Shown piece by piece: positions 2,387 to 56,806 of a stretch of 64,000 nucleotides of DNA. A model generated the notes under the pieces. It worked only from the letters and a program-made list of their open reading frames with translations, was not told where the DNA came from and made no database searches. Numbering within the stretch: position 1 is the stretch's first letter; every line of letters begins with the position of its first letter. The position numbers and the translations under genes are program-made. Source of the stretch: Prostheceraeus crozeri (taxonomy: Eukaryota > Platyhelminthes > Polycladida > Euryleptidae); assembly GCA_907163375.1 (NCBI GenBank), contig CAJQUW010006851.1:41831-105830 (forward strand). The letters are read 5' to 3'.

Positions 2387-2566
2387 TATGAACATAGCTT
2401 TCAGGCGCTTGCGCGCCCTCAAATGCCCTACATAGTTGCCCTCAAAAACCCATGTTAATGTTATATGGTACCAACCTTCCAGCGGCCATAAATGAAACAA
2501 TCCTCGGACGCTCGGACGGAAATCTCCTAACGCGTCGTCGGATTTCTTCATTTATGTTTTCGTAAG

Positions 2567-34382: not shown

Positions 34383-34395
34383 ATGGCAACATCTG
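34383..34395 (+). CDS. Exon 1 of the ubiquitin-like gene
   Basis: Codes for MATS plus the first base of a glycine codon. The ATG sits in a good Kozak context (GAAATGG) and the donor GTAAGC follows at once. The frame stays open upstream to the acceptor at 34348, so a slightly longer N-terminus from an earlier exon cannot be excluded. Confidence 0.5.
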
Positions 34396-37300
34396 GTAAG
34401 CGTCGTCACATTTTTTGATGTTAATATTTATACCGGTATTGATTGTGTAGTGGACAATTGAACGTCATTAAAAGTGATCCTATAGAAATTAACCAACGAC
34501 CGAGATTTTTACTTCAATTTTGGAAAGCACGCTATTTCAATCACATAATATAGTCTTTGTAACAATGTCTCAATCGGAATTCAACTGAACTGAACATCAC
34601 TGAACTATGCATAGTCTTTGGAACTATGTCTCAATCGGAATTCAACTGAATTGAACATCACTGAACTATGCATAGTCTTTGTAACTATGTCTCAATCGGA
34701 ATTCAACTGAACTGAACATCACTGAACTATGCATAGTCTTTGGAACTATGTCTCAATCGGAATTCAACTGAACTGAACATCACTGAACTATGCATAGTCT
34801 TTGTAACAATGTCTCAATCGGAATTCAACTGAACTGAACATCACTGAACTATGCATAGTCTTTGTAACAATGTCTCAATCGGAATTCAACTGAACTGAAC
34901 ATCACTGAACTATGCATAGTCTTTGTAACGATGTCTCAATCGGAATTCAACTGAACTGAACATCACTGAACTATGCATAGTCTTTGTAACGATGTCTCAA
35001 TCGGAATTCAACTGAACTGAACATCACTGAACTATGCATAGTCTTTGGAACTATGTCTCAATCGGAATTCAACTGAACTGAACATCACTGAACTATGCAT
35101 AGTCTTTGTAACAATGTCTCAATCGGAATTCAACTGAACTGAACATCACTGAACTATGCATAGTCTTTGTAACAATGTCTCAATCGGAATTCAACTGAAC
35201 TGAACATCACTGAACTATGCATAGTCTTTGTAACTGTGTCTCAATCGGAATTCAACTGAACTGAACATCACTGAACTATGCATAGTCTTTGTAACTGTGT
35301 CTCAATCGGAATTCAACTGAACTGAACATCACTGAACTATGCATAGTCTTTGTAACTGTGTCTCAATCGGAATTATAGCAGAATTTTCAGTGAATAACTG
35401 AAACTATGTGAAATGAACGCACTGCAAGTTTGACATTTATTTCTGGTAGACTTGCCACATTTAAAGGAACGGCATTTCCTTGGCCCTGTCGACGTTGAAT
35501 TTTGAGAGTTAGATGATTGATCGACGAGACGATCTTGTGGGAAAGCACTTTTGGTTTGAGTCAGAACTTTAGAGTTCTTCATGCTGAATATTTTCTGCTG
35601 CCATCTGGTCTGCAACTGACTTGATGAAGTCTTGCTCGATGAAATGCAGTCATTCATTTTACAGATCAAAAATTAGTTCAACAGTGATGCATCCAGTTTT
35701 TCGAAGGAACAGTAAAGGATAGCTATCGTTTGCACGAAAAATCCTCGATCCTGCTATCAATTGGTCAGCGCCATCTTTGTATGAATGATAGTCCAACACC
35801 ACCAAAGTGCTTATCTTTTATTTGCAAAATCCCTTGAAGTGCTCGTAGATTTCTCTGGAATTGAAATTGTTGTTTATAATGGTCTCATGATGATGAGACC
35901 AATTCGGGTATATTTCACTATATTGCTTTTCTAGGACGCTGAAATATACTACTGATTTTACTACTTGTTATGAAAGGGTTCTACGGGCGCGAAATCTGCG
36001 CGTGCAGGTGAGTGGGGGCTCGAGTAATAAGCAATTTAGGTCATTCTAAGCTCTGCCTTTTTATTAGAGCTTTGGTATATTTTTGAAGTTACATTTCAAA
36101 CGTGTCATACTACTCATATGAAAAATACACAATTTATGACCGCAGCTACTTTTTGTGAGGTAACTGCTCGAGCAATATCTTTCAACATTGGTTTGCAAAC
36201 CTTTGAATGTATTTAGGAAATATCTATACACGTTCGGTTCTTGGTATATTTTTTTATCATTGACAGAATATTGAAAAAAAGTAGTTTTTTTCATTTTTTT
36301 CGAAACTACTAGTAGGATTTTGGAAAAATTTTATGGGGCTATATAGCTGACCACACCCAATCATCCTGCAGAATCTCATATCTGGTATACTTTTTGTTTG
36401 ATTATTTTTCATTTTGACCACCTGTGACATCTAATGTTTTTTTGGTTTCTTTTGTAGCCTTTTTATAAGACTTCGACGATTTGCTGTATACAGATGCTAT
36501 CAGAAACGGATGTCAACCACAACGTCGAACTGGTCATAGTCAACAACATGATTAATAGTGACCGACAGCAAAACACGCAACGTCTAACTGAACTCAATCA
36601 TTTAGTTTTGGTGATAGATTCTCCAAATCAAAATACAAGATGCTAATATAAAAGCCAAGGATATGCAATCAGGTAGCTTTTAATTCAGGAATCAGGGATA
36701 GAATTGTCGAGGGTGTCCAAAAGTCATGGATAGGATTGTCGACGAATGAATCCAGGAAAAGTCAGGGATTGCTAGTTTTGAAGCCGGTGGTATCCGAAGC
36801 TCCTTGAATGAATTTTGCAAAATATGGATTTCATTCCTACTCTGACAAACTGATTCTATGAAATGAGCTCACTGACTTTGAGCAATCCTTTCTTTGCAGG
36901 AACTTGGAAGGTAGTTATCTTTGCTGAAAATGATGAACATGACAAGATTTTTACATTTTCACCTGAGACACCTTTGAGCGAAGTGCTGCAGAGTTGGAAA
37001 AAATACTTTGGCATTTTTGGCCATTATGTCTTCAAATCCGAGGACAGGGCCGAGGAGTATGATCTGGATTTTACTCTCCGGGATGTGGGAGAGAGTAAAG
37101 ATGGCTCGAAGAAGGTGGAGTTGGCGCTCGTCCTTTCAGACCTCCCCACGCCAACTCCAACAAGAAACATTTATGTGGTATTGAATGGCCGATACAAACA
37201 TTACCGCGTGAGTCCGCGTGATCGACTCAAATACATTATCCCAAACTCTGCTGGAATGACTTTCTCATTCAATGGAAGGATTATTGATATTAGCAAGACC

Positions 37301-40300
37301 ATTCGGCAGCTGAAGATTCCTGAAAATGGGATGATCACAGCCGTGAAGACAATCCCTGTCAAGATCTCGAACGGCAATCACAAGATGGTGAATGCATCAG
37401 ACGGATCCGTGACATCTCAGCTGAAGAATGTCATGAAGCAATTTGAGGAAGAGAATTTCTTCGTTAAATCCAAAGGACGAATTGTTGTGGGCGACGAGCT
37501 GATTGACTGTAAAGACGCTGAAGTTTTGGTGACCAGGCCGAAGTTTGAAGTGAAGATTGGACATCAAACTTTCACATTTCCCGCTACCGTGGGGAAAGCT
37601 TCATTCCAAGACTTCACGTTTGCTCTCTCCATTGTCTCTGGAATGGAAAGGTGTGAACTCTCCCGTCACACGTACGTTTGTATGGGATGTAAAAGGCGAA
37701 TTGGTGACAATGAAGAGGAAGGGCAGCTGGTCAACATCGAGTGCTGCCGTGTCCGCTCGCTGTCGTTAAAGGTGGAAGAGGATCCGGCTCATGAAGGTGA
37801 GTTGTTAACACTTTGTAAGTAGAATAATTGAATATTGAGTTGCATCCTCAGTTGAAAAAAGGAAACGGACCTAGAAATCCTAGAAATTTCACTGTGTAGG
37901 AATAGAAATCCAACATGTGATAAAGAATCCTAGAAATTTCACTGTGTAGGAATAGAAATCCAACATGTGATAAAGAATCCTAGAAATTTCACTGTGTAAG
38001 AATAGAAATCCAACATGTGATAAAGAATCCTAGAAATTTCACTGTGTAGGAATAGAAATCCAACATGTGATAAAGAATCCTAGAAATTTCACTGTGTAGG
38101 AATAGAAATCCAACATGTGATAAAGAATCCTAGAAATTTCACTGTGTAGGAATAGAAATCCAACATGTGATAAAGAATCCTAGAAATTTCACTTTGTAAT
38201 AATAGAAATCCAACATGTGATAAAGAATCCTAGAAATTTCACTGTGTAAGAATAGAAATCCAACATGTGATAAAGAATCCTAGAAATTTCACTGTGTAAG
38301 AATAGAAATCCAACATGTGATACAGAATCCTAGAAATTTCACTGTGTAGGAATAGAAATCCAACATGTGATAAAGAATCCTAGAAATTTCACTGTGTAAG
38401 AATAGAAATCCAACATGTGATACAGAATCCTAGAAATTTCACTGTGTAAGAATAGAAATCCAACATGTGATAAAGAATCCTAGAAATTTCACTGTGTAGG
38501 AATAGAAATCCAACATGTGATACAGAATCCTAGAAATTTCACTGTGTAAGAATAGAAATCCAACATGTGATAAAGAATCCTAGAAATTTCACTGTGTAAG
38601 AATAGAAATCCAACATGTGATAAAGAATCCTAGAAATTTCATTGTGAAATACGAGATAATTGTGTGGGACGGAAACATAGTTGGCTGTAACTCAATCCAA
38701 TGCAGTTTTTGGATGCTTAACTGCATTACATGTAAGTGCTCCTTAATTGGTGCTAGATGCTTTTTATGGTCATCAATCCGCTGTTGAAGTCGACATTTAG
38801 TTTCACCAATATATTGGCCACTTGGATGAAAATTCATACACAACACACGACTGCATCAATGGAATCACGTTTAAGTGAGAGATGTGATTTCACTTCGTTT
38901 GTGCTAAAAACCACTTATTGCGCCTACATTATGTGGTTAAAACCGAATTCATCTCATTGCATTGAACTCTCAGATAGCACGAACGCTCATTTTACACATT
39001 TTCGTGTAGGAGCTATTCAAGCAAGAATAGCATTGCCCACATTTCTGTGAACATTTCAACATGAACCGATACACTGACGATAGAAGACAATTTGTGAGCA
39101 CTTTTCAACTGAAAATGGAATTTTTAAGTTTTGAAAAATTCCATAAAACTTAACATCAAAGCTACAATGCAGTGTACCTACTTTAAGTTAATTCTTGCGA
39201 TGTAAAGCAGTGTCGTGAATGTTAAGAATATTGGTTCGTGAGACAGAGTTGCCGCGGGACAGGGAAGCTGAGAAAGCCTGGAAAACACGGAATTTTATAG
39301 AACTTGATAACTAAAAGTGATCTATCATGATTTCAGTTCAGTTGGTTTACCGTCATGTCAGTCTTAATGTATCCGTCTTTGAGAACAAGCTTGGCCAGTG
39401 GAAACAATAAATCGTTTTTAAAGAAATTATCAAATTCTGCAGGAAGTCGGTCCAACTAAATTACTAAGTTTTAGAATGTTAGTATCAACAATTTTCATCT
39501 TCATTAAACTCCGAACAAAGTTAAAGTAACAAAAACTGCAGGTCAGTACCGAGCAGCGATCGAAGCTAGGAGCATTCGAGACATATTCAGAGAATGGCAG
39601 AAAAAAGAACGAGCTGAAGATACTTCAAGTCAAAAAGCTGAAACTTGAAAAGGACGCTGCTCGTCATTCCATTTTAGAGAAATGAGAACCAAGTTGAATA
39701 TTGAATATGATTTAAAGTCCATCCCGTCTCCGTAGATACCTCTGCTGTGCGAAGATATGAAATCCTTTGTAGAAAACTCTGCAGTAAAACATCGTGTTGC
39801 ATTTGCGTATGTTCGCAATGATAGCTCGTAATTATAGAGATATACAGTGAATTCGTGAATATGTGAATTTTGTACATCTTTTTGATTTATCTCTTGATGT
39901 GAACTTAAAATTTCCATGCTGTAAATCACTCACTGGCTGATGACAAGTTACTTGCCTCATTTCAAATCCTGAAAATATGTCTGTTAGTCAAGGATTATTC
40001 CCGATCGCAAATCATGAAATTCCCTTATATCACTCATCATTTGCGAGCCTTCATTTCTAAAATCAACAAAATGTTCTGTCGGTCTTATCCATCCGAAATA
40101 AAACTGCTGTTCTACACGTGTGTCCTTTCATTCATGTGATGCAATGACTACATAAACATACGTGTTTTTGGAATTATCCGGCCATCCCAGGCTATCGTTA
40201 ATGTCTTTTTATATTTCTTTCAGATGAGATATCAAATGATTTGTTGATCAGTTTTGAACGGAAGTATTCCAAGTTATTATCGGAATACAAACTACTTGAA

Positions 40301-43300
40301 AGAATGGAAGCTGACGCTCGATACAAGCTCTCAACTGTGAGGTCAAAGTTGGAAGAACTTCAGCTATTAAATGGACGACTGCAGAAAAGTCTGAACAAGG
40401 AAAAAACCAAGAGAAAGAATATTGAGGCCAATTGTCAGAGACTCCAAAGCACCCTCCTTCATCTACAGAGTAAGTTCTGTTGTACTGCAGCCTTCATGTG
40501 CATTGGGGGAATGAATTCTTTAAAGTAACCACAGGATACCTGTCGGATCTGCGCATTCTCCGCGAAGTTTTCAGATTGAGATCCGTTCCTCCGCCGTCGC
40601 CTGCGGAGATCGAGGATATCCTGCGGCTCTGCGCATTCTCCGCGAATTTTCTAGACTGAGATCCGATCCTCCGCCGTCGCCTGCGGAGATCGAGGATATC
40701 CTGCGGATCTGCGCATTCTCCGCGAATTTTCTAGACTGAGATCCGATCCTCCGCCGTCGCCTGCGGAGATCGAGGATATCCTCCGGATGTGCACATTCTC
40801 CGCGAAGTTTTTAGACTGAGATCCGATCCCCCGCCGTCGCCTGCGGAGATCGAGGATATTCTGCGGATCTGTGCATTCTCCTTGAAGTTTTTAGACTGAG
40901 ATCCGATCCTACGCCGTCGCCTGTGGAGATCGAGGATATCCTGCGGATCTGCGCATTCTCCTTGAAGTATTTAGACTGAGATACGTTCCTCCGCTGTCGC
41001 CTGTGGAGATCGAGGATATCTGTCGGATCTGCACATTCTCTGCGAATTTTCTAGACTGAGATCCGTTCCTCCGCCGTCGCCTGCGGAGATCAAGGATATC
41101 CTGCGGATCTCCGCATTCTCCGCGAAGTTTCTAGATTGAGATCCGATCCTCCGCCGTCGCCTGCGGAGATCGAGGATATTCTGCGGATCTGCACATTCTC
41201 CGTGCCATGATTTGATATTTCAGAAGGCACATTATTGGCGTATGAAGGACTTTACCATGATTTAGCTTTCAAAATGATGCTTAGCTTAGGACGTCTATAG
41301 TAATCGGTGATATCCTGATATTGGAGATGATCACCTACAATGCTGGTCAATTTCTTAGACACACACCCATGAAAATGCCGTATTTGTGATGCAAATCAGA
41401 GCTTTTCTTCTACAAGAAGAAACTATTAACTTTTTTCAATCAGAATTGCAAATGATATAAAACACAACAAGCTATTTATCAAGCGCAAGGAATAAATATG
41501 GCCTGTGTTGGCATCGATTATCATCTTCGACTCCCATAGGCATGGAGTCAACTGTTAATCTGTCCTTGATTCTTGGATTACTAAACCATTTCTGTAGCAG
41601 CTTATAATTATCAATTAAGTCCTTCCTATTTGATGGAGGAGCAGTAACTATACGCTTCAGATGTCCCAATTGGGTTTGGGATCAAGAATGCGCCTCGGTC
41701 AGTCCATCAGAGTGATCTCCTGATCTCGAATGGCCTACTGGAAATTTGTCATTAATTAAACTTATTTTGTAAAAATAATTAAGTTTTTGATCCTTTACCA
41801 TCTTCCCATGCAGAAACTTTCGCACGTCTACGCGGACCCTATGGTCGCTTTTCCAATCTCTGTTGGGTCAGTCTCGGTTTTTTTCCTTTTTTATTGGCCA
41901 CCATCATTCACCAACGCAGAGCTCTTGCCTATACAACAGTTGGGAATATTCTTTGGCTAGTCATTTCATTTTTTAGACTTTGGAAAGAGCCAAGTAAATT
42001 GGTAGAATTTATCTGTAATTGCTAATTAGTGCAATATATTTCTGCTACTCTCCGTAGCTCTCATCAGGCAGTAAGTGAATGATTTGCAGAATGAATTTGA
42101 AATTCACATCAAGAGATGTATAAAAAAGATGTACAAAACTATGGCAAGAGAAGGAGCTATGCGGCAGGTAGTGAAGGGTTACATAGTACCAATAGCATTT
42201 ATAGTAAATGACCTGACAGGAAGAAAAAAGGGAAGAAATAGGATGTGAATGAAATCTGATTGCTGTGGAATAAGAGAGTAACAGAGAACCCTTTAATACC
42301 TGCCGCATAGCTCCTTCTCTTGCCATAGTTTTGTATATTTTGTATATCCTTTTTTATACATCTCTTGATGTGAATTTCAAATTTTATTCCGTAAATCATT
42401 CACTTACTGCCTGATGTTAGCTACGGAGAGTAGCAGAAATATATTGCACTAATTAGCAATTACAGATAAATTCTACCAATTTACTTGGCTCTTTCCAAAG
42501 TCTAAAAAATACCATGTAACATTGTCATGCTACTGCTAATGTCTTGTGAGTTGCGAAGATTCTTCAATGATTCTTTATCCATCAAATCAATGCTGATGAC
42601 ATTTTTCTAGGATTGTTGATGCGTTCACATCTCCCAAGCTCATAGTGACCACAGGTGCGCTATTTTTGCTTTGCTGCGCTCATTGCGCTACTTTTTTGCC
42701 TTTTCCGTGGTTTCTGCGCTATTTTTTAAGACTGCAACGAATTTGTTCTTTATTAAAGTACTTGTAGATGTTAATCAAAAGAAGACAAAGTTTTTTCATA
42801 AGTCGGCATTTCTTAGTATAATTTACCGATCTATGTATCGAATGGAGTCTTCTATCTTCAGGTTTCTGCATCTGAACAAAATCCAAAGTATTAGAAGCGC
42901 TATGTTATCTAATTCTAAGCCTATTTGACAGCATATCCTATTTCACTTGAACATCCTGTACATGTCAAGATAAATCATCACAGATATATTTTTCTCTGAG
43001 ACGCGCGAGCATGTGAAGTGTAAGTTACAAGAATTAAGTGATCAAAACTTAAGTGATGTTCAAACGTTGTGGAATTCTTACAATGAGGAGTTATAATATG
43101 CTCGGATCTTGAAGCGGTTTCAGAGTTTTCTACAGTTTAGTATAACTCGAGGCTGTCACGTAATTAAAACTCTCTGAGGTCACACAGTCGGGGAAGAAGA
43201 AGTTTGCTGAGCTGGCAAAGGCATTCAATGTTCATGCTATTACAATGGTTGATGAATTATGCGAACTTCAGGCTCAGCATCCCGATGATACTTTGATTGA

Positions 43301-46300
43301 TATTTTCCGCCGATCCATGACAACGTCTGATCATTCAAACCACCCAAAATCAATGGAACTCGCAGAATCTTAGTTATTGGTTGTAACTCACAGGACGTTG
43401 AGCGCGGTTTTTCTGTAATGAAAACTGCTGAAACAGTCCAACAGAGCAAGATAAGACCAATTTTGTACGACTCCGTGAGATTTGTAAGAGATCGATTCGA
43501 TGGGTCAGACTTTGAGTCGTACAATCCACCGAAGTCCTTATTGAGTGACGTTCAATCTGCTGGTTCGAACTTAGGAAAGAGTGAACGAAATTGGCCGCGG
43601 CGAACAGAAGCGCCTTCCTCAAGAGTCCTCCCTGCAAGAAACTTTGAACGTCTTCAAAAGACACGTCAAAAGAGCTGAAAAGAGATATTGACCAAGTGGA
43701 AATGGAGATTTCTGAAACGCGGAAAGCCGGAAACGGATGCAGGATGTGGAACAAAAAAGGCTCAGTTTGCACTTGGAACAAACAAGCGAGTCTTCACGAA
43801 CAACTGAAATTTCTAAGAAAATCATAGACTCAATGTTTTCTTCGAATTGATACCCCTACCGTTGTGCTTTGCATCGCTGTCACAAATGAACTTTAAAGCA
43901 TGTGGTTTTGTCAATACTTCAACAAGTTTTCTTGTTAAAAATCACTCAATTGCTTTTTGTTTTCCCATCATATGCTGATAGGGGTCAATTAGGTAAAGTA
44001 TATGTATATTTATACAGGGCTCGTACGGCTTGTGAAAGTTTGTAAAAGTTTGTGAATTTTGAAAAGAAAGTTCAAGGCCCTTGAAAGTTTGTAAATTTCA
44101 CGATTTTTCAGAAAAGTTTGTGAATTTTTGGAATAGCAAAGTTAAATTTCTGCTGATGATTTACTTTTTAGATTTTGAACATGATGAAGTCAGGCTTCCC
44201 AGTCATAAAAGTTAAGGATCCACCATAAAATAATGAAATATGACCAAATTTTACAAAGTTCATAAAAGAATTTTCAAGTAAATCTGGGATTGACTGACCA
44301 AGCGCGACCACGTCACTTGAATCAGAACTACTGAGGTAAACAAAATTCAGTTTCGAACCCCGTTCTTGAAACTTGGATTATGCTTTTTGCGAGAAAATAC
44401 AATGTGGTGTGGACGTCAAGCAGTTCATAGCAGATCCACATTCTCTTCTTAAATATTGGAGTGCGCGCCGTACTCTTCTCGTCATGTCCTCGATGAAGTG
44501 CCAACAGGTATCACCACATGGTATACTTTTCGGCTTGCTTCCTCGCGGTGGTTAAGCCTTTAGCCAGCCTTACTTCGAACTTCGGATCTATGAGTAAACT
44601 TTCAGCAGCATTTTCTCTAATATCTTCCATCACAGGAAGAATTCAAGGTACTATTCAGTCAATTGACCGATGCAAGCGGATCGCAAGTGCTGTGAGGCAT
44701 TCTTGCTGAAGCTCCGAAGAAGAGAACCTTTGATTTATGTCTTGCAAGCCACATTGACATCTCTGACTAGAATTAATGCAGAAGTTTTCATCAAGAAGTT
44801 GTTGACATGATCGGACAAGACGCTGGAGACATTGAAACTTGTTGTGAATATGGCAAAAATTGATGTCACAAAGCCTGAAAATGGAAAGTCTGCAAGGAAG
44901 ACGATGTTGGAACGAAAACAATGAATAATGGGCCTACTATTGAATAATGAAGTTTGCGAAAGTGACGCACAGAAACTTAAGAATACTTGTATTGGTTGGC
45001 ATCTTTGTGGTAGTTGTCAGCAACCTAGAAAAAGTATCTTCCCTTTGATTCATCGGCGCTCAAAAGACGCAACCATGCTCCGCCGTCGCGATCCGAATTC
45101 GTCATCTTCAATATCCCGCTTGTCCCTGACAATGCTGGAGTTATGCTGAAGTCTGCATTGGACACTGCATTCCTGTGTTCGGCTGAAGAATCAGAAACTG
45201 GATCAACAGAAACTATTGGTAAAAATTATCAAAAATCACGGACGAGTTCGGAAATCCAAAGTACTGATTCTCATAAAACCTAGCAATATGCGCACTGACA
45301 CCAAACTTCGGTAATGCGGCCTCTGAACTAGGTTGAATCAAGCATGTCGACAGAGCTAGGTACATGACGAAATTAGCCATCGAACTGACAATGGATCAAG
45401 TTTAAGATGCAAGTTCAGAACCCCAAGAAATTTGGAGATCCAATAAACTTTCGCGAGCGTTTTTAGATCGTTTTTTCTCAGATTTGAACACGTGTTTTTA
45501 GCAGTGATTATCCATCTTATTGTTCGTTAGTAGTTATTTAAGAAGAAGCATATAGACCTATTTTGACATCAGCTATTATGAATGTATTATGCATACGGCA
45601 TGTTTCATTTATGCAATCGAGATAGCTCGATTAAATATTTTTTAGATGTAGCCTAATTATGTTTTATATACCTGCGTACTTTTTCAATTCTTGTTTTCCT
45701 ATCAGGAGATATTGACTTCCTTGTTTATGTCAGTTGTTGTTCGTTTCTCTATCAGTAAATATCACATGCTTCTATATATTTTTGAATATAAAAGGAAGCA
45801 CGTATGGAGGATTTTTTATTTCAACATTTCTCTCATGATGCGTCGATACATGAAATGAATTTAGTTGCAATTCTAATGAATGGCGGCATTAATTTGAATA
45901 ACAATTCGGTAGAAATGTATTGTAGCTGAATTTTTGTGGGCATTCTCTTGCCGAAATAGCTTCTTTCCCATTAAATTAGCGAATAAAGGGTTTGTGAAAG
46001 TTAGTGAAAAAAGCTTGTGAATGTTTGTGAAAGTTTGTGAATTCTGCCTCCAGGAAGCCGTACGAACACTGTTTATAAGGGTGCCATCCAAAATTTAATA
46101 AGTCATTCTTTATACACGAATCTTTTCCTTGCGTTTTGTTTCATGAAAAGGTATTTTACACAGGATATATAACGCCGTATCACAAGGGGGGGTAAAATTT
46201 TGTAAATTTGATATCACGTAATATGTGCACGACCCCTTTTGATGAGAACTTTTACTCTCTATTCATTGCTGAATTAGTTTTTCAATTTCTTGTGACCCTT

Positions 46301-49300
46301 TTGTCAACGCCTGATATCAACTAGAACCTGATCCTGTCTTAAATTGGTAACACAATTTTTGTTGTGAAGTTTTTGTAGTTGGTTTAGTTGTAGGATTAGT
46401 GACGTTTGGTTGCATTTGTTACATGCATTTAGCACATGTAGTTGTTGAAACGATGGATTCGGTAACAATATGCCAACTTAATAATTTACATATCAACAAA
46501 AATGGCTCCTCAGAAGTGATTGATGACGGTTATTGCGAACTCATGTAACCAGATCTTTGCGAAGGATCTTCTCCGAGGGTCATCAATGACCAAACGCAGT
46601 TGGTTTCGGAAAATCTTTCTTGTTACAAGTGATTACCTTCCGTTTGAATTAGTGCGTTGTAGTTATATCAAACTTTGCGGAAATTGCATAAAACATATAG
46701 GACTACATCTCTAGGAGGATATTGGGCGTTCTTGGACAAGGTTTAATAAGAGCGGCGATCACCCAGCTTGATCATGAAGTAGGATGCCACAATTCTCTGT
46801 TATTAGTAGGTCTGTGAAAATTTAGTAGAGGTGCGAAAAGAATGGAAAAGTCTCTGGCCCGACCCAGGGTTGCCGTGGGTATGGGGATTCTGTGGGGATA
46901 CCCATGGGTATGGGTATTGAGGCCATCCCCACAGCTCCCATAGGGCTTCTGTGGGGATTCTGATGATTTTTGACATTCACTAGAAGCAATCAGAACTGAC
47001 ATCACATCACACAATCAACTTCGATGTTGAATTACAAAGTATCACGCAGCCTACCCATCTCACCACTTAAAATGCATGAAATATCAATGATGATCATTTT
47101 CACATCAGTAACACACGCTCAATAATTTTGAATGACTTATAATGATAGTTTCAGATGTGTCAAGGACGTCTGAAGTGGAAGAATTGTGCAAGTCTCCTTT
47201 ACTGCAGAGCCGAATGGAGACTTACAAATATTAACTCTAATAGTATAAATAGCTCAGATAAAATTACTTGTGATATAATTGAGCTTGCGTGATAAATGTG
47301 ATTAATCATTCTTAATCTAGATTTTAAACTAATTACGATATAGAAGACCTGTTGGGTCCAGCCCTCAAGGCAAGACACATGAAAATGTTGAATGATTTTC
47401 GTCGAATACATGAACAGTGTGATAAAGATTTCTCACACCAAATCATTCAACTGTAAGCCATCTACTCGCATTGCAATCATAGTTATAGTGAAAGCTCAGA
47501 TTTTTCACTTGTCCACGACTTGTCAGAACTTAAATTTTCATCTGATAGGCGTCCTTAATAATATGTTGAGTATTTATTTCCAAGGGTTAGTTTGAATTGA
47601 AAACAGCACATGAACGATAGTCAAGCCGAGCCGGTCACTGACAGTTCGGGACTCGGTAACACAATAGCCGCATTGTCATAAGTAACAATGCGACAACACA
47701 CCACTTAACTGCACACTTCATTGTGCTGCATTTCATCACCATACACAAATGGGTCAACATCCTCCAAATTCTTGTGCAATAATTCGGTGACATGGGTGGT
47801 TGAGAATATCAGGATGATTTTCATCGAAGTCTATATTTATAATATATAGTAGATTAGATTGATTCAAAGCTTTTCCTTTACCACGTGTAAGCCTATATAG
47901 TCGATTTCTACTGCGAAGCAATTCTAGACTTGAGATGCATAAAGGCCAAACTCGCTTTGATATTTTACTTCTTTATCGGCATTGATGGAGACAGAATTAT
48001 CAATGATTGCTACATTAATTCAATTAGCGAATATTAAACGGAAATATTCACACATGAACTTGGCATGATCCACTGAGCAATAAACGATGGCTATAATGCA
48101 CATTGGTAGACCGCAGACATATAGTAAAAGCCTACATACGAATTTTCGACAGGTGACTTTTTTGTGATAGAGTGACCATTTTGAAGTACTGGCAGGGTAG
48201 TAACATATGAATATTTTTTATTTATGTTCAACACTGTCTTTGTATGTTGATGGACTTCCCATTATTTGAAAGCAACAGAACTGTAAGAAACAAAAGGAAT
48301 GAAAAATCCTCACATTAGGAGCCCCTAATACCAACTTACAGGACAGCCCAGGATTATATTCTCACAAATGGAAGACATGAAACTCGTATATAATCTATCA
48401 AAACAGCCAAATACATGCACTTAGAATTATTTGCACAGAAGATGGAGTCTTCACGAAAAGCATCTGACTGAAAATATTGTGCGGACGTTAAGGTCCTTCA
48501 GGACTTAAACTGACAGTTAAAATGTCAATAGATATATTGATAAATATTCATGCTTGCTTTTGTGAAACATTTTGTACTTAATCACGATTGTCTAAAGCGA
48601 GGAATTTAAGTATGGTTCTTTTGAAATGAATGTGTATATATTTCATGAGAAGCATAACATGTACACATGATGTAATGTAAGCTTAGGTTTGATTTTACTT
48701 GATGTAGACTGGTTGCTTAGTGTTATAACAGCGAACGGTAAAAGGCGAATATAAGAAACATCGAAATTTCAAAATAGCGAAGTATGAAAGCATTTTAACA
48801 TTTTAATAAGGCCATGTTTCCTTTAGTCTACATGTATAGTTGTTGAATTTTTACACAAATGTGATTCCTTTAAGGGAACAGTAATGCAAAAATTGTACCC
48901 ATAAAATAATCTTGTAGCAAAATGAAGTAGGATCGACATGGTCAATAACTAGGTTAAGTGAACCAAAACTCCAAAGTGAGTGAAAGAGGAAGTTTGAAAA
49001 AACACAGCTGATCGATAACCGATTTGTTATAAAAGCAAAAAAATGAAGACAATGTCGTCATACTATGAAAAGGAAACATTTCGAGATAGAATTACGTTCA
49101 CGGTAAACTGCGTTACGGTAGTTTTATGGAAAAAGGGTGTCATGTCTCCTGAATCATTAAAGAATTATGAGTGGAATGAGAAGATCCTATGTAAACTGTA
49201 CGTGTGAGCTGGTAGCAGACGACAAAAACTTACGAATTAATAGAGTAGACAAAGAACACCTATCTGCTAATGCAACCAAATGATTCAGGCAAATGTAAAT

Positions 49301-52300
49301 TTGTAAGTCAAATACGTGTGCATAGCGGGCTCTATTCCTTGCTTGAACGAGCATTTAGTTAAATTTTCGGTACAATAATTTCTAGGTGGCAAGTCAGAAT
49401 CAAGGCTCAATAATGATAGGAAATAGGATTCCAAATAAATCAGGTGATCTTCGTATCCGGAATGGAAGCGTGATGAAAAAATAACCTTCTGCGGATACTA
49501 AATTGATTTATTACGATAACCAATATTTCGCCTTGCGGCTTTGTCAAGGTTACAATAAATAAAGCAGAGAGTGGTAAAAGGTGGGCCTATTTAAACAAAC
49601 TTTGAGTACAGCTAGAAGAGAAACATTAACTTGGATGAACCCGTTACATGACAGTGTCTATATTTAGACCTTGACACCCGTTCATTAGGGAGCCTGCATG
49701 ATGCCGAATGTACATAGCTTCTAACGTGAGTCTCTTTTGAATAGTATTCAATCCACGATGCAGTATCGTCCATGAAATAGGCTGCGAACAATTGGGATGA
49801 GTCTGTAGATGTTGAAAAACAGTACTGTTATTCTGTGAGGGATGTTCTTTTATCCTTGACTTGATACAACGAGCTGACTCGCCAATGTAAATAGCACCGC
49901 ATGTATTGCACACAATTTTATATATGATATTTTTTGAGTGACACGAGTTACCTGTATCGCTCAATTTGCAACTTGTGCAGCTATCATGGCATTGGATTTT
50001 TTGTTTCGGAGGGCGGAACATTGCTATTTACATTGGCGAGTCAGCTCGTTGCATCAAGTCAAGGATAAAAGAACATCTCTCATAGAATAATAGTGCTGTC
50101 TTTCAACATCTACAGACTCATCCCAATTGTTCGCAGCCTATTTCATGGACGATACTGCATCGTGGATTGAATACTATTCAAAAGAGACTCACGTTAGAAG
50201 CTATGTACATTCGGCAACATGCAGGCTCCCTAATGAACGGGTGTCAAGGTCTAAATATAGACACTGTCATGTAACGGGTTCATCCAAGTTAATGTTTCTC
50301 TTCTAGCTGTACTCAAAGTTTGTTTAAATAGGCCCACCTTTTACCACTCTCTGCTTTATTTATTGTAACCTTGACAAAGCCGCAAGGCGAAATATTGGTT
50401 ATCGTAATAAATCAATTTAGTATCCGCAGAAGGTTATTTTTTCATCAGGAAATAGGATGCTACAATTTTAAAGATCAATAGGCCTATACCGAAGATAGCA
50501 AGGAAAAGTCATAAAAGTTACAACACGAAGGTCGGTGACTGTCTTCAAGGACTCCAATCCACATCTCTGGAGTCAAATACGGCCTTCAGATCGTTGAATG
50601 ATGTGCACAAGTTCCACTGAGATGGAGATATTGGACATCAATCATTCTATACGAACAAGAGCAACATATTAATCAGGGGCTTATCCTGTAGGGGCGTGGG
50701 GATTCTATGCGGATACCCGCAGGCTTTTCTGTGAGTATGGGGTGGGGTGGGGATTCAAATATCAATCCCCATGGCAACCCTGTGGCCCGACACTGTTTAA
50801 TACTTCAATATAACACATAAATTCATGAAACTGTCTACCATAGTTAACATAGCATCACAGGTTACTGGTTCAGGTATGGAAAACCTCCTTGAAAGTTATC
50901 GGATTGGTTCATGCTCATTATCTGGATCTGATCCGATTAAAACGTCGTGAATATCAGCCGATCCGATGCGTGTTATTGGATCATGATCCGAATGATCCGG
51001 TAGGAACCCACACGAAATTATTTTTAAAGACCTCATTCTGCATTATATTTTCGGGAAGTTTTGGACCGGTCCCTGGACCTCTGTTTCAGACGGATCTGTG
51101 ACCTGTTACAAGGTGACCAACCAGAACTAGCGACTTGATTCATTCTCTGCGAACTAACCTTAGTTAGATAGCTCTAAATGCAGATAAATGTTCATCCGAA
51201 CATCTCAGTGATTCAAATTTCGTTATCAGATGCTCAAAATGTGAACTTCGTAGGCATGAATGTGAATTTGCGAATTTGTGTTCGCGTTCTACTCACAAGC
51301 CATTGTTAAGTGACTGTGCACTCCGGGAGCTGACCTAATCGGTCAGTGAGAATTTATTTTCAACAGTTCCTCGTGAGGAAAACATTTAAGAGACAAGATT
51401 GGAAACTTTCAGCTGTTATAGGACCTACTGGAATGCCTTCTGCATGATTTCGTCATTATCATGAAAAGTCAATGAATAAGATTCAGTCATTTCATGTAAT
51501 TGTATTCTCTTGATCGAAGGATTAATGAATTGTTTTTGTTTTGACAGATGCTCCGAAGAATGTTGCGGCGGTGCAATTTCCTCCTCCTCCTCCTTCGCCC
51601 GGTAAGTTCGAAGTTCTACCGAAATTCTAATTAATAACATTCTGTCAAGATTGAAGAAGTTTCCTTACTTTTGATGCAATTACATGGAAAGTGAGCACGT
51701 AATAGGATACAGCTCCTTCAAACTTCTCTTTGATCGACACGGAAATGTCGAATTAGTGGACTCAATAAAAGCTGTTCGATCTTGTGAACTGGAAGACGAT
51801 GTCAACAAACAATTAGCGATCAGTATGAGGATAACAGACAGCGAACTATTCAATGAAATGTGAAGTTGTTCAACTGCTTCAATCATATCATGGGGTGAAG
51901 ATACCGTCTTGGCTCTAAACAAACATTTGAAGCTTTCATCATGTCAGAATCTTCTGCGTCTCAGTTTATACAGACAAAAGTTATTGACTTGAATTATTCA
52001 TGTCCAGCATATGCCGAAACTTTTCCATACTTCACCTGGCCGATCAATTCACCTGCGTACCTGTCGCAAAACTGTCTTGTGCTAATCAAGAAGATGTGCT
52101 TAATGACATGAATTCTCCAAATCTGTCTCCTGATAACCCAGTTATAGATGCTGAAATACAAGACAAAGATCTCTTATGTGGCGTATTCATGAAAACAAGA
52201 TCTCGCAAGAATTTTTGAAAAGTATTTACGATGAAATCGTTTAGTGGAGAGGAAAATGTTTTCCTTCTACCTAGTGGTGCTGCAGGAAAGACTCATGTTC

Positions 52301-55300
52301 AAGAAACGACCAGACTTGGAATAATGACTCCAGCGATATGAAAGGGATCACAGCAGTGATGACAACCATCTCTCTTGTTGCAGGAACCGTCTTTTAAGTC
52401 AATAGCATTGCTCTTATTTGGCAAGATGTTTATAGTTGTGGGAAGAAGGCAGGTTTGAAACTTTGCTATCAGAAGAAAGGCAATTCAAACACCATTTCAT
52501 GAAAGAAGGATCGTGTCAAATACAGAAACATTTTCCAAACTGATGTTTAAAGGGAAGGTACACACTGCGGTAAGAATGCTCGACTCACCAGAACCCTCTG
52601 GAGTCTCGCCACTTCCAAAACAAGTTTTAGATGATTTCCAAACAAAACATCCTGAGCCACAACCAGAAAACAATGCATTCATGCTCCATAGAATTCCACC
52701 TTTTGTTGATTTTTGAGAACTTTGATGAATCATCAATTGCAAAATCTGCATTGAAAACAAAGGGAGCAGTTGGACCATCAGGAATGTACACGACAGGATA
52801 GATTCTGGTTTCACGGAATTATGGCGACCATGGTAGTCAAAAATGACTGAAACATAGTCATAAAGCTTCAACTGAATGAGGAGAATACGATAAGTATTGA
52901 ATCATTTATATCCTGTTGTCTCATTGGTCTCTCGATAAGAAGTCCGGAATGCGACCTGTGGGAATTGACGAAATATTGCAACAGATTGTCGGAAGTGATA
53001 ATGTCAGCTGTAAAGTCACAAATTGTTGATTATACAGATTCTTTGCAATTAGATGTAGGCCAAAAAGGAGGTTTTGAGGCAGGTATTCATGTTATGACAG
53101 ACATTTTTGAGGAAGACGAAACAGATGCAACACTTGATGCTGCAAATGCATTTAATTCCATAAAGTGAAACGTTTTCATTCGTAGCACTCAATTCATATG
53201 TCCGCCAGAGAAATCTATGCAGAAAATTCCTATTCGATATCGTTGCGATTATTTACTCAGAGGTAGGGAAATTGCATCTCGTGAAGGAACAACTCAAGGA
53301 ACTCAATATCAATGCCTACGCAATGGGATACTGCGTATGGATAAAATGAAGGATTCAGATTTGCAGATCAAGCGTGTTGCATTTTCGGATGATTTTTCGA
53401 GTATGAGACAAATTTCAGCAAATTTTAAAATGGTGGGAAAACGTCTGTGTTCATGGTCCCTCACTTGGATATTTTCCAAGACCTGACAAATCATGGTTGA
53501 CAGTGAAAGAAGAATTATTTCAAACTGCTACCACTGTGTTTGCTGGAACAAAGTTGAACATTGCGAGTGAACATTCTTATCTTGGAGGATATGTTGGTGA
53601 CATGCAAAATTGTTCTGTTTATGCCAATTCATTAGTCAAGAAATGGACTGCTCAGATTCAAACTTCAGCAATGATGACCGAATTCCAACCTCAGGCTGCA
53701 TACGCCTGTTTTGTTACTTGTTTGCGCAATCACTATCTTTACCACATCCACACAAATGCAAATGTGGAGTCTTTTTTGAAGATCTATCGATCATGTGATT
53801 GATAATAAGCTGATTCCGGTTTTAACAAATGCACAAATGTTGCGTGAAAGTGAACTTCTGTCTTCACCTGTTCAACTTGGTAGACTCGGAATCCTGATCT
53901 TATCTGACGTAGCGAATGTCGAACATGTGAATTCAAAGTCACTTTGCCGACCTTTAACAACAAGCATTATCAATCAAAATGACAATTTGACATGTGAACT
54001 GATAGAGACAGTAGAACGATAGTATAAGCGATCGTTGTAAACGCAAAATGATTTATTGTTGTCAGTACGACTATAAATGACACCGGATCAGTTAAGAACG
54101 AATGACGTTGCCCAGAAGAGTGGTTTGTTAAGTACATTGCCTTTGAAAAGTGAAAGTTGCACCCCTTCTGAGCAGGATTTTTTGATGCTCCGGTCTTAAG
54201 AAATCGTTGGAAAATGCGTCGCCTGCCAACCGAATGTGGATGTTGAAAGAAGTTCTCCATTGATGACGCAATGTCTTGTATCAAAGATGGTTACATCCAC
54301 CGAAAACATGATGAATTGAGAGATTTCATTGCAGTTCTTTTGAATGAAGTGTCGTCTGACGTGTCCATTGAACCGCAATTGGTACCTCTGTCCGGTGAAA
54401 TATTTGATAATGCTGCGAATGTTGCAGATGAAGCTCGACTTGACATTGCCGCTTGAGGATTTTGGCAGCATTGCGTGAAGACACTTTTTGACATCAGGAA
54501 ATCTAATTCATACTCCCAACCACATAAAAGTCAATAAAAGAAAAGATCCTACAATCAACGCTTCATTCAAACCGAAAGAGGATCTTTTCCTCCTTTATCT
54601 TTCAATGCCCACGGAGGTTATGGGTGAGAGACGCATCATTTTCTCTCAAACCTTGAGTGCATTACTGAAAGTGAAATCCAACGCTACGGATAGAAACAAA
54701 TCGTCTCCACACAAAAACATCATTTTTACTACAAGATGAAGAATAGTTTGTGTGAATTCTCGAAGTTTGCGGCCGAAAACTCGCCCACTAGATGCTGTAT
54801 TTGCCTGATAATAAGACGGCAATATCTGACAGCTGTGTTTGATTTAGTTATTCAACTTTATCTTCAGTTTTATATCAAAACTAAAAATCTTAACCGTAAT
54901 CTGCTGTTTTTGCAGGTTTATATTGTTAAAAAGAATGTAGTTTCCATAATGATATGGTTTTGCAAATAATCACTTTTAAGAAATGAATAAGTTGTTCAAC
55001 TGCTCCGATCATTAACCTCCTGAGAGAACAGCTGAGTTTCAAAGTGAAAGTTGCAGCCCATGCGCTTCCCACAGACATTTTACAAGAAGCAAATTCTAAT
55101 GAGAACAACACAGACATTCAATCTTTTTATATTTCGATGACTTTTGATTGTCATTTTCATTGGATTTCAATCATTTGAATGAGGAGAATCCGTTTTTGAA
55201 GGATTTTCTTCTAATAAGTGAATTGCAGATAGAAAAGATGAATAAGAGAAGAAATGATTGGAAAATCCGTTTGCAGGACGATCAGCAGTTGTCAATTCTC

Positions 55301-55793
55301 CGATGAAATGTTTTCCAAACAGTGAAAAATGATTTGATGAACAGAACGGAACCTTCAACTGATTTTCCTTCCAAAACAACTTCTTTGCGTCAAATTCATT
55401 CATTTCCTCTTCTTTGCAGTTCGGTTCTATCTCTTGGACTACACGGGGTCAGTGAGAGATGGATTCCACGATCTGCAGCTGCCGGAGACGCCGACGGTCG
55501 GAGATCTCCGCAGAGCTCTGGCGGAGAAGACGAAACTCCGGCCGGAGGCTTTGAGGATTGTGCAAGGGACCGCCGTCTCCGGAGATGGAGAGAAAGTGTT
55601 CGAGGTGAGGGAAGGAGGAAGGGCCTTCTTCACAACTGCCGCCGGGGAGGAAGTGGAAGGGAGGAATGGGAGAGGCAATGTCCTGGAGAATGATGAGGAG
55701 CTGTTCGTTCTTCCTCCTCAGCGGTGCCTGATCCTCGGCATCTCCCGACGATTTCTCCGAAAATCAAAACTTTTTCTCTTCTCTGAGAATTGA
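34383..55793 (+). CDS. Multi-domain ubiquitin-like protein with coiled coil, five exons
   Basis: Predicted spliced gene encoding 527 residues. Exons: 34383-34395, 36900-37796, 40224-40469, 51548-51601, 55420-55793. Donors are GTAAGC, GTGAGT, GTAAGT and GTAAGT. Acceptors all follow T/C-rich tracts ending in AG. Every intron is phase 1 and every junction keeps the frame. Layout: beta-grasp-like modules at about residues 6-84, 94-159, 166-218 and 219-298; coiled coil 304-386; proline-rich linker 397-403; a further ubiquitin-like module 404-512. The second module is the clearest, with a MTFSFNGRIIDISKT segment like the beta3/beta4 turn of ubiquitin. There is no C-terminal GG, so it is unlikely to be conjugated. 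A scaffold or adaptor role is inference. I do not recognise a named family. Start ATG has G at -3 and +4. No AATAAA is seen in the 650 bp after the stop, so the 3' end may lie further on or be spliced. Confidence 0.7.
34549..35374. repeat. Minisatellite in intron 1, 61-bp unit, 13.5 copies
   Basis: The unit starts ATAGTCTTTGTAACAATGTC and contains CAATCGGAATTCAACTGAAC and ATCACTGAACTATGC. Copies are almost identical except at a hot spot reading AACAATG, AACTATG, AACGATG or AACTGTG, with like variants next to each other, as expected from unequal exchange or slippage. Confidence 0.97.
35375..36899. other. Remainder of intron 1
   Basis: No other coding region or repeat is recognised between the minisatellite and exon 2. 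The 3' splice site with its pyrimidine tract occupies the last 20 bases. Confidence 0.4.
36900..37796 (+). CDS. Exon 2: four beta-grasp-like modules
   Basis: This 897-bp exon is the largest and clearest coding block. Module 1 opens GTWKVVIFAEND and has a helix-like PLSEVLQSWKKYFG. A PTPTPT linker leads to module 2 (NIYVVLNGRYKHYRV through PENGMITAV), the best ubiquitin-like match. Module 3 (QLKNVMKQFEEENFF through DAEVLVTRP) is shorter. Module 4 (KFEVKIGHQTFTF onward) carries a CxxC at residues 265-268 and a CC at 286-287, which could bind a metal. The frame continues upstream to an ATG at 36863 and downstream past the donor to 37822, but the splice signals TTTCTTTGCAG and G|GTGAGT set the edges. 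Codon use and base composition stand out from the flanks. Confidence 0.85.
37870..38646. repeat. Minisatellite in intron 2, 50-bp unit, about 15.5 copies
   Basis: The unit is AATAGAAATCCAACATGTGA followed by TAAAGAATCC and TAGAAATTTCACTGTGTAGG. Copies differ mostly at TAGG/TAAG and TAAAG/TACAG. The array starts only about 75 bp after the exon 2 donor and ends against a Penelope relic. Confidence 0.97.
38650..39060 (-). pseudogene. Penelope-like GIY-YIG endonuclease relic in intron 2
   Basis: On the - strand the frame at about 38846-38680 reads CMNFHPSGQYIGETKCRLQQ followed by RIDDHKKH, the YIGET...R...DH core of the GIY-YIG nuclease of Penelope elements. Upstream (39010-39055) a cysteine-rich KCSQKCGQCYSC matches the zinc-finger-like part that precedes this domain. 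Between them several in-frame stops break the copy. No reverse transcriptase trace is seen beyond it. Its sequence differs from the other Penelope relics here. Confidence 0.65.
39061..40223. other. Remainder of intron 2
   Basis: Mostly unremarkable. At 39850-39930 a segment containing CTCTTGATGTGAACTT and TGTAAATCACTCACTGGCTG is a diverged relative of one arm of the foldback at 41968-42510. A coding-like stretch at about 39541-39645 (QYRAAIEARSIRDIF onward, ended by TGA) follows a weak CTGCAG acceptor. It could be a decayed or alternative exon, but no good donor follows. Confidence 0.3.
40224..40469 (+). CDS. Exon 3: coiled coil
   Basis: Codes for 82 residues starting DEISNDLLISFERKYSKLLS and rich in Leu, Glu, Lys and Arg at heptad spacing through LQSTLLHLQ. 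No proline or glycine breaks the run except one Gly near the middle. This is a typical parallel coiled coil for self-association or partner binding. Acceptor TTTATATTTCTTTCAG and donor A|GTAAGT are both strong. Length is a multiple of three and both sides are phase 1, so skipping or repeating it would keep the frame. Confidence 0.85.
40533..41203. repeat. Minisatellite in intron 3, 80-bp GC-rich unit, 8.4 copies
   Basis: The unit contains CTGCGGATCTGCGCATTCTC, AGACTGAGATCCGATCC, TCCGCCGTCGCCTGCGGAGA and TCGAGGATAT. Copies begin about 60 bp after the exon 3 donor. It is far richer in G and C than its surroundings. Each unit can fold on itself (CTCCGC...GCGGAG). Confidence 0.95.
41204..41967. 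other. Intron 3, no feature seen
   Basis: No gene or repeat recognised. Confidence 0.4.
41968..42510. repeat. Large foldback element in intron 3
   Basis: Arms of about 200-220 bp are nearly perfect reverse complements. ATTTTTTAGACTTTGGAAAG at 41968 is matched at 42491-42510. GCAAGAGAAGGAGCTATGCG near 42146 is matched near 42304-42323. The loop is about 110 bp. The high identity suggests recent origin or gene conversion. A diverged relative of an arm lies at 39850-39930. No target duplication is evident. Confidence 0.85.
42511..43159. other. Intron 3, possible hAT end
   Basis: A run of TGCGCTATTTTTGC, TTGCGCTAC and TGCGCTATTTTTTAAG words at 42654-42730 looks like the terminal part of a DNA transposon. 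No partner terminus was found. Confidence 0.25.
43160..43680 (+). pseudogene. hAT-type transposase C-terminal relic
   Basis: Two frames carry the trace. The first reads KKKFAELAKAFNV and MVDELCELQAQHPDDTLIDI at 43200-43300. The second, shifted near 43370, reads CNSQDVERGFSVMKTAETVQ and continues through RPILYDSVRFVRDRFDGSDF. The VERGFSVMK word followed by a helical leucine/isoleucine stretch resembles the dimerisation domain at the end of hAT transposases (usual pattern: E-R-x-F-S-x-x). Frame breaks make it inactive. The family call is moderately certain. Confidence 0.45.
44015..46071. mobile_element. hAT-like DNA transposon bounded by CAGNG termini
   Basis: The left end starts CAGGGCTCGTACGGCTTGTG and the right end, read on the - strand, starts CAGTGTTCGTACGGCTTCCT, giving a 17-bp TIR with two mismatches. 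Both ends are flanked by TTTATA (44009-44014 and 46072-46077), a possible 6-bp target duplication. Subterminal GTGAAAGTTTGTGAA words are repeated at both ends. The 2-kb interior has coding-like stretches (for example 44375-44550 and 45090-45250 on +) broken by stops, whose product I cannot recognise. The usual hAT duplication is 8 bp, so the 6-bp match needs care. Confidence 0.6.
46855..47160. repeat. Second copy of the dispersed repeat seen at 23640-23960
   Basis: The left part is a run of GGGTATGGGGATTCTGTGGG-like text with GGGGAT repeats. Then CTAGAAGCAATCAGAACTGA and ATGCATGAAATATC follow in the same order as in the 23640 copy. A related fragment lies at 50690-50800. Non-coding. Bases 46072-46854 before it hold nothing recognisable. 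Confidence 0.55.
47161..49417. other. Intron 3, no gene seen
   Basis: No supported coding region or repeat in this AT-rich stretch. Confidence 0.4.
49644..50021 (-). pseudogene. GIY-YIG endonuclease of the Penelope-like element
   Basis: The 125-codon frame has the full GIY-YIG layout. First comes a cysteine-rich lead (CHDSCTSCKLSD), then IIYKIVCNTCGAIYIGESAR with the paired GIY/YIG strands. The arginine helix (IKSRIKEH) follows, then the catalytic-glutamate segment (RLTLEAMYIRHH) and an MNG near the end. In intact elements this domain follows the reverse transcriptase. Here the frame starts at the inversion boundary, so the protein is truncated. The right arm carries a mirrored copy of its second half, in which at least one codon has become a stop. 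Confidence 0.8.
50370..50394 (+). ncRNA. Possible degenerate hammerhead-ribozyme-like motif in the pLTR
   Basis: The sequence reads CTTGACAAAGCC, a GCAA loop, then GGCGAAAT, with AACC/GGTT complementarity outside. This recalls the hammerhead core (CUGAUGA, stem II, GAAA) described in Penelope pLTRs, but the first box does not match the consensus. The mirrored copy is at about 49524-49549 on the - strand. Self-cleavage is doubtful. Confidence 0.25.
50459..51547. repeat. Intron 3 end with a fragment of the GGGGAT repeat
   Basis: Bases 50690-50800 (GTGGGGATTCTATGCGGATA onward) are a fragment of the family seen at 46855-47160. The rest holds nothing recognisable up to the exon 4 acceptor. Confidence 0.4.
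51548..51601 (+). CDS. Exon 4: short proline-rich linker
   Basis: A 54-bp micro-exon coding NAPKNVAAVQFPPPPPSP. It lies between a clear acceptor (TTTTGTTTTGACAG) and donor (G|GTAAGT) and is again phase 1 on both sides. The five prolines come from a CCT repeat, so copy number may vary. A polyproline stretch could contact SH3 or WW domains, but that is inference. Because the exon is short, its inclusion is less certain than that of its neighbours. Confidence 0.65.
51684..51860 (+). other. Unidentified coding-like frame in intron 4
   Basis: A 59-codon frame starts MESEHVIGYSSFKLLFDRHG and ends in ELFNEM before TGA at 51861, then stays open again for some 40 codons. It has protein-like composition but no motif I recognise. 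It may be the start of the retroelement relic that follows. An alternative exon is less likely because no acceptor sits next to it. Confidence 0.25.
52130..54960 (+). pseudogene. Long decayed retroelement: RT followed by zinc knuckle and nuclease-like domain
   Basis: Fragments in shifting frames line up as one polyprotein. In order: ENVFLLPSGAAGKTHVQETT near 52255; LKTKGAVGPSGM near 52755; KKSGMRPVGIDEILQQIVGS near 52945. The RT core follows: AGIHVMTDIFEEDETDATLD and AANAFNS (53076-53160), SREGTTQGTQ near 53280 (usual QGDP altered), and AFSDDFSS near 53380, where the catalytic box has Ser for Ala. Then come KLNIASEHSYLGGYVGDMQN, QLGRLGI, and a C-x-C...C knuckle near 54225-54275 (His replaced by Asp). 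HDELRDFIAVLLNEVSSDVS and EARLDIAA then FDIR follow, which fit a PD-(D/E)XK-like nuclease. RT plus CCHC plus restriction-like nuclease is the layout of R2-type LINEs, though I am not sure of the clade. Many stops and frameshifts. Confidence 0.65.
55420..55793 (+). CDS. Exon 5: C-terminal ubiquitin-like module
   Basis: Follows the acceptor TTTCCTCTTCTTTGCAG. It codes VRFYLLDYTGSVRDGFHDLQ, then a helix-like TVGDLRRALAEKTKL and strands through EELFVLPPQRCLILGI, ending in a stop at 55791-55793. The order strand, strand, helix with leucines, then strands, and the VGDLRRAL / LRIVQGT words are ubiquitin-like. The exon is markedly GC-rich with G/C-ending codons, unlike exon 2. The last 15 residues (RRFLRKSKLFLFSEN) look less conserved and could be read-through of an unrecognised donor. 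Confidence 0.75.
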
Positions 55794-56705: not shown

Positions 56706-56806
56706 CCGTCAACTGGGGAAACTTGTGCCATGGTCGTTTATGGAGCTTCACATCCATCTGTAAGATTTATGATAATATTATCGGTCTTGTAATCATTTTT
56801 CCTGTA

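Follow-up and report, generated by a model that had tools for sequence, protein, structure and literature searches.

Several described proteins bear comparison with the gene reported here. TUG (ASPSCR1/UBXD9) carries N-terminal ubiquitin-like domains together with a C-terminal UBX domain (excerpt of PMC9556833), and several ubiquitin-like domains per chain are likewise recorded, in excerpts from the literature, for USP7, OASL and ISG15. OTU1/YOD1 possesses a UBX-like domain, and ABI1, zyxin, LPP and NHSL1 are ligands of Ena/VASP EVH1 domains, for which the binding rule [FWYL]PX-hydrophobic-P is given in an excerpt of PMC8789275. The gene in question lies on the + strand of 64,000 nucleotides of Prostheceraeus crozeri DNA (assembly GCA_907163375.1, contig CAJQUW010006851.1, positions 41,831 to 105,830 of the forward strand; this whole stretch is referred to as the window, and all coordinates are those of the window). 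Five blocks between 34383 and 55793 join at GT-AG junctions into 1584 nucleotides encoding 527 residues, with the frame intact throughout. The locus is tentatively read, with a probability of about 0.45, as a genuine spliced gene for a dimeric, cytosolic ubiquitin-like adaptor whose fourth exon would recruit EVH1 domains.

The predicted protein resembles TUG in having ubiquitin-like sequence in its N-terminal part and a ubiquitin-fold candidate at the C-terminus, and differs from it by the coiled-coil exon and the FPPPPP linker in between. It shares the probable presence of several ubiquitin-like domains with USP7, OASL and ISG15, but is without a protease or OAS match in Pfam, without a terminal GG, and composed of modules that are not alike. 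The likeness to OTU1/YOD1 is confined to the C-terminal module, which matches weakly (E=0.0091, below the curated score), and Pfam finds no OTU protease domain in the joined protein. The FPPPPP core fits the EVH1 rule as do the ligands named above; in contrast to these, the present protein has a single motif, lacks acidic flanks, and contains ubiquitin-like domains in the same chain. Narrow literature queries for tandem or multiple ubiquitin-like domains with a coiled coil returned nothing, many of the papers listed by a broader one concern ISG15, OASL, USP7 and TUG, and a query joining ubiquitin-like, coiled-coil and EVH1 returned nothing relevant as judged by titles and the opening lines of abstracts.

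Exon 1 (34349-34395) runs from an acceptor-like end through the start codon at 34383 to a donor after 34395, its coding part (34383-34395) giving MATS and the first base of a glycine codon. It is followed by exon 2 (36900-37796, 897 nucleotides), which holds the proposed modules 1-4; by exon 3 (40224-40469, 246 nucleotides), which holds the coiled coil; by exon 4 (51548-51601), a micro-exon of 54 nucleotides (NAPKNVAAVQFPPPPPSP) with the FPPPP (FP4) motif of EVH1 ligands; and by exon 5 (55420-55793), which comprises the C-terminal ubiquitin-like module, a tail and the stop codon TGA (55791-55793). Each of the four junctions splits a codon between its first and second bases (phase 1). Exons 2, 3 and 4 are therefore symmetric, and skipping any of them would keep the frame. 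Splice sites were scored on the + strand (3346 GT and 3522 AG dinucleotides) with a generic, hand-written matrix. The donors of exons 1-4 ranked 12, 4, 86 and 6, and the acceptors of exons 2-5 ranked 12, 14, 13 and 9. The in-frame joining of five blocks into 527 residues, as proposed in the preliminary description, was thus reproduced; the strong splice signals also claimed there were recovered for seven of the eight sites (ranks 4 to 14), and not for the donor of exon 3. A tblastn search of the window with the joined protein matched its own exons only, and no paralogue was found there.

The frame that contains exon 2 is open for 322 residues from stop to stop (36854-37822). None of 120 simulated windows had a frame of this length; the longest were 206 and 208 residues for the two Markov orders, with 60 windows each. 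This length, together with the intact frame across five blocks and the seven high-ranking splice sites, argues against a chance chain of open blocks or a dead pseudogene that yields no product. Such an origin would be in keeping with the retroelement-like debris and satellites in the introns and with the lack of relatives in viral and GTDB contigs, and we consider it very improbable. The presence of a coding gene is near certain, it is very likely that exons 1-3 belong to one gene, and their link to exons 4 and 5 is likely.

Both ends of the gene model are open, owing to a splice pair within the last exon (see below) and a good acceptor before the ATG. The latter, at 34349 (score 6.57), lies 34 nucleotides upstream of the start codon (context gagaaATGG), and the frame is open back to it, so that an exon of the 5′ untranslated region, an earlier coding exon or a trans-splice (spliced leader) site is possible. 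Downstream, polyadenylation-type signals were sought in 55794-58500; the first AATAAA stands at 57904 and variants stand at 56433 and 57269. An extension of the gene past exon 5 was considered as well, and no convincing continuation was found among the acceptors listed.

Coding character was measured with codon preferences learnt on exon 2 and applied to the other exons, with intron sequence as the null. The first part of exon 5 (55420-55604) scored 0.529 in the expected frame (99% of the null at 0.014), and exon 3 scored -0.073, between the 95% (-0.120) and 99% (-0.042) levels. For exon 4, the expected frame was the best of the plus-strand frames, and one minus-strand frame scored higher. The intron null is AT-rich, with less guanine and cytosine (GC) than is found in exons 4 and 5, and exon 5 exceeds it in several wrong frames as well; composition-matched controls were therefore added (2000 mono-shuffles and 2000 order-1 samples of each stretch). 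The score of exon 5 to 55604 was reached by none of the mono-shuffles and by 15 of the order-1 samples, and that of 55605-55721 by none and 58, respectively. The corresponding counts were 5 and 115 for exon 3, and 50 and 476 for the last 23 codons (55722-55790). Exon 5 is thus well supported as coding in its frame and exon 3 modestly, whereas exon 4 (counts given below) and the last 23 codons are unsupported by their own codon scores.

Ubiquitin-like character was assessed with a profile built from 16 hand-written reference ubiquitin-like domains, each module being compared with 300 shuffles of itself. The C-terminal module and module 2, at residues ~90-155, outscored all of their shuffles, whereas the scores of modules 1, 3 and 4 were reached by 40, 100 and 213 shuffles, respectively, and show no profile similarity beyond composition. 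Pairwise comparison with the same 16 domains gave TUG as the best match of module 2 (z 4.5); two of 150 shuffle sets did as well on the best of 16, and none of 150 shuffles reached its mean z over all 16. The best match of the C-terminal module was UBL4A (z 7.1, equalled by none of 150 shuffle sets), in an alignment that spans the first half of the domain only, with or without the 117-nucleotide stretch discussed below. Module 4 lacked a general signal and matched YOD1 alone (z 4.4, a z reached by three of 150 shuffle sets). No two modules of the protein were alike beyond shuffles (best z 1.2). Four N-terminal beta-grasp modules and a C-terminal ubiquitin-like module had been put forward from inspection; the C-terminal one is upheld, and of the four in exon 2 module 2 alone is. 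Two of the five proposed modules are accordingly supported as predicted ubiquitin-like domains.

The Pfam scan of the joined protein gave no family above its curated cut-off. Its best match was TUG-UBL1 at residues 118-148, within module 2 (E=3e-4, 21.3 bits against a curated 23.3), where the general ubiquitin model overlaps (E=0.056); with module 2 alone, TUG-UBL1 was obtained at E=0.011 (16.3 bits). The C-terminal module alone matched OTU1_UBXL best, module 3 matched Chibby (E=0.14), and module 1 and the end of exon 5, scanned separately, matched nothing. Among four reversed fragments scanned as controls, one matched MHC_I at 0.23 and three matched nothing. Matches at E of about 0.01 to 0.03, including that to OTU1_UBXL, are treated as leads only because unrelated families score alike. 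NCBIfam returned only a coiled-coil SMC match for the joined protein (E=0.046). Sequence searches of the PDB gave one weak coiled-coil match for the joined protein (E=1.9), no match for exon 2 at E<=10, three matches for module 2 (E 0.2 to 1.6, none named as ubiquitin-like), and five for the C-terminal module (E 0.52 to 1.8), two of which are FAF1 chains (0.84 and 1.8). AlphaFold single-sequence models were of low confidence for exon 2 (mean predicted local distance difference test score 34.2) and for module 1 (57.6), the latter consisting of a helix and three strands with beta-grasp strands 1 and 2 missing. Foldseek with this low-confidence model of module 1 yielded 174 matches at E<=10, none of them at E<=0.001, and no ubiquitin-like domain was the matched molecule by title among the best 50 of the 174.

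These results bear on whether exon 2 encodes an array at all. The N-terminal block might instead adopt a fold of another, unrecognised kind that holds a single ubiquitin-like domain, in which case the product would be a two-domain coiled-coil protein; this is compatible with the adaptor reading, and we regard it as quite possible, if somewhat less probable than that reading. It is favoured by the shuffle counts of modules 1, 3 and 4, by the lack of likeness between any two modules, and by the two strands missing from the low-confidence model of module 1. Ubiquitin-like domains, on the other hand, are often undetectable from sequence, the strands and helices of modules 1 and 3 are spaced, by eye, as in a beta-grasp, and module 4 retains its weak signal to YOD1.

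A divergent TUG/UBXD-like cofactor of the p97 ATPase, with TUG-type ubiquitin-like domains at its N-terminus and a UBX-like domain at its C-terminus, working by p97 binding, was also weighed. Both the best Pfam match and the best pairwise match of module 2 belong to TUG, the C-terminal module scores best in Pfam against OTU1_UBXL, and the domain order of TUG is similar. The matches nevertheless stay below the curated cut-offs, no UBX family appears among the Pfam matches, and the C-terminal module is closest pairwise to UBL4A, which is not a UBX domain. The tripeptide FPR is the p97-contact signature of UBX domains, and it is absent from all 527 residues; a PDB search with the joined protein likewise did not retrieve the TUG structure 2al3 at E<=10. 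We hold membership of this group to be improbable. A UBX-type mode of working as an adaptor is still conceivable.

A heptad pattern extends over 63 residues of exon 3 (at least nine heptads) with a contrast of 0.60, a value that none of 1000 shuffles reached, and the coiled coil proposed for this exon is solidly predicted. The C-terminus reads LFLFSEN; the absence of a terminal GG noted in the preliminary description is confirmed, and in this form the protein therefore cannot serve as a modifier. A non-conjugated adaptor is the best reading, on indirect grounds.

Exon 4 was first found with a proline filter, after which the interval between exons 3 and 5 (40470-55419) was scanned without a filter for open, in-phase micro-exons of 30-300 nucleotides. 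Exon 4 was the sole candidate in these 15 kb at strong and at relaxed thresholds. None of 200 simulations contained a chance micro-exon at the strong thresholds, which had been set just below exon 4's own scores after the real values were known. Across its junctions the exon reads NAPKNVAAVQFPPPPPSPV, in which the expected polyproline linker is present. No second FPPPP was found when the window was read in all six frames, and FPPPPP matches the EVH1 rule; a looser form of that rule was matched by 152 of 48137 open stretches of 54 nucleotides in the window. The motif is a predicted Ena/VASP EVH1 ligand, and as such a lead, not a proof.

A further splice pair lies within exon 5 and delimits a stretch of 117 nucleotides (55605-55721) that is in frame and free of stops. 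Its donor (55604/55605) scores 7.42 and its acceptor (55722) scores 8.69, the highest among the acceptors listed beyond 33000. A comparable pair arose in 27 of 5000 synonymous resamplings of the exon, with a threshold set after the real values were known. Exitrons are characterised, among other features, by high GC content, absence of stops and a length that is a multiple of three (excerpt of PMC4494720); the present stretch is stop-free, divisible by three, of GC 0.57 and inside a coding exon. Its codon score in the frame of the exon is 0.593 (a minus-strand frame scores 0.474), as high as the exon's own, and for this reason a constitutive intron is not preferred. An optional exitron fits the splice pair and the coding score better and is a possible reading. 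Removal of the 117 nucleotides would give a protein of 488 residues, and the ubiquitin-like profile scores the C-terminal module at 5.7 bits in the spliced form versus 4.5 bits in the unspliced one. A more elaborate account combines all of these elements in an undescribed animal family of dimeric scaffolds. Its members would have four beta-grasp modules in degenerate form, a coiled coil, a C-terminal ubiquitin-like domain, an optional EVH1-ligand exon that ties them to the actin machinery, and an exitron that removes or restores the end of the C-terminal domain, and thus two frame-preserving splice switches; we regard this account as a long shot.

A number of results weigh against the adaptor reading, several of which concern the joining of exons 1-3 to the rest. 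The distance from exon 3 to exon 5 is 14.95 kb, and the link from exon 3 through exon 4 to exon 5 consists of splice sites and phase across a repeat-bearing interval. The donor of exon 3 (AGA/gtaagt) is the weak one, at rank 86, and base composition is uneven (GC 0.46, 0.39, 0.59 and 0.56 in exons 2-5), as is codon composition. The distance, the weak donor and the difference in GC between exon 3 and exon 5 would also be accounted for by two adjacent genes on the same strand, one comprising exons 1-3 and the other exon 5, perhaps together with exon 4, misjoined across 15 kb. Phase agrees at every junction, however; exon 5 needs an upstream exon in any case and has a strong acceptor (rank 9) directly before its domain; and the micro-exon scan, which was not accompanied by a systematic search for other first or last exons, yields one candidate that links the halves. 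Two misjoined genes therefore appear unlikely.

The remaining adverse points concern exon 4, module 4 and the lack of relatives. The codon score of exon 4 was reached by 80 of 2000 mono-shuffles and by 323 of 2000 order-1 samples. At relaxed thresholds, a chance micro-exon occurred in 25% of the simulations, and the minus strand of 40470-55419 contained two candidates (none at strong thresholds). FP4 motifs are common, the human proteome having 4,994 of them, and acidic flanks, which can enhance EVH1 affinity (both from an excerpt of PMC8789275), are lacking around the FPPPPP of exon 4. Module 4 matched the unrelated Pfam families DUF1289 (E=0.018) and DUF2197 (E=0.025) with similar weakness. 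No relative of exon 2 was found in bacterial and archaeal (GTDB) contigs among 49 pattern matches. Viral contigs contained no relative of exon 2 (one pattern match) or of exon 5 (25 pattern matches). The absence of relatives from viral, bacterial and archaeal contigs says little, because it is expected for an animal gene, as which the locus is taken here.

Three introns of the gene contain minisatellites. That of intron 1 (34550-35374, 61-bp unit) begins 155 nucleotides downstream of the donor, that of intron 2 (37876-38646, 50-bp unit) 80 nucleotides, and that of intron 3 (40533-41202, 80-bp unit) 64 nucleotides downstream. The arrays are 670-825 nucleotides long and unrelated to each other; intron 4 has no array of this kind (two short rows only in 51500-55500). 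When five large arrays were placed at random, three such donor-near hits arose in one of 200000 trials, and when three arrays were placed within introns only, the same proximity arose in two of 200000, the 160-nucleotide limit having been chosen after the fact. Intron minisatellites near 5′ splice sites have been described in amphioxus; one paper on amphioxus does not use the word minisatellite in its main text. Literature searches on minisatellites behind donors gave nothing to the point in the excerpts returned. That three 5′ splice sites in succession are followed by minisatellites may reflect the introns of this genome more than the gene, and is possibly a trait of the genome.

Further elements were recorded in the interval between exons 3 and 5 and elsewhere in the window. 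An inverted repeat (49471-49896 and 50022-50447) has arms of 426 nucleotides that are 98% complementary and a spacer of 125 nucleotides. One of the arms overlaps a GIY-YIG-like frame (E=1.1e-4). In appearance, the repeat is a piece of a Penelope-like retroelement in fold-back arrangement. The window has a GIY-YIG frame above its Pfam cut-off (22.9 against 22.6 bits) and a weaker one (E=0.03). Broken frames in the last intron (51675-54456), of which the pieces scanned had no significant Pfam match, resemble the reverse transcriptase of a retrotransposon of marine invertebrates. A frame at 43331-43678 recalls by eye the C-terminal region of hAT-type transposases and had no Pfam match. The longest open frame of the window, with 346 residues, encodes a reverse transcriptase (2531-3571; Pfam RVT_1, E=3.7e-24). 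A satellite of ~52 copies of a 34-bp unit with strong GC and AT skew occupies 20131-21883, and a candidate exon of 52 nucleotides with strong splice sites (6.6 and 7.2) stands at 6574-6625 on the + strand, possibly as part of an upstream gene. Searches of the window for transfer RNA genes and Rfam families found none. With its reverse transcriptase, GIY-YIG frames and satellites, and without transfer RNA or Rfam matches, the window looks eukaryotic in content.

Under the adaptor reading, the gene would be expressed as a protein in which the coiled coil of exon 3 pairs two chains into a dimer. The dimer would display an N-terminal block, in which module 2 and perhaps other modules are ubiquitin-like domains, and the C-terminal ubiquitin-like domain; each of these domains may serve as a non-conjugated docking surface. 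The flexible proline arm of exon 4 would sit between the coil and the last domain, where FPPPPP could recruit Ena/VASP-type EVH1 domains. Inclusion or skipping of this exon, which preserves the frame, might switch the link to the actin machinery. If this reading is true, the gene would encode a ubiquitin-like adaptor that is not conjugated and that can be switched towards Ena/VASP by splicing within its own frame, and ubiquitin-like scaffolding would thereby be linked to actin.

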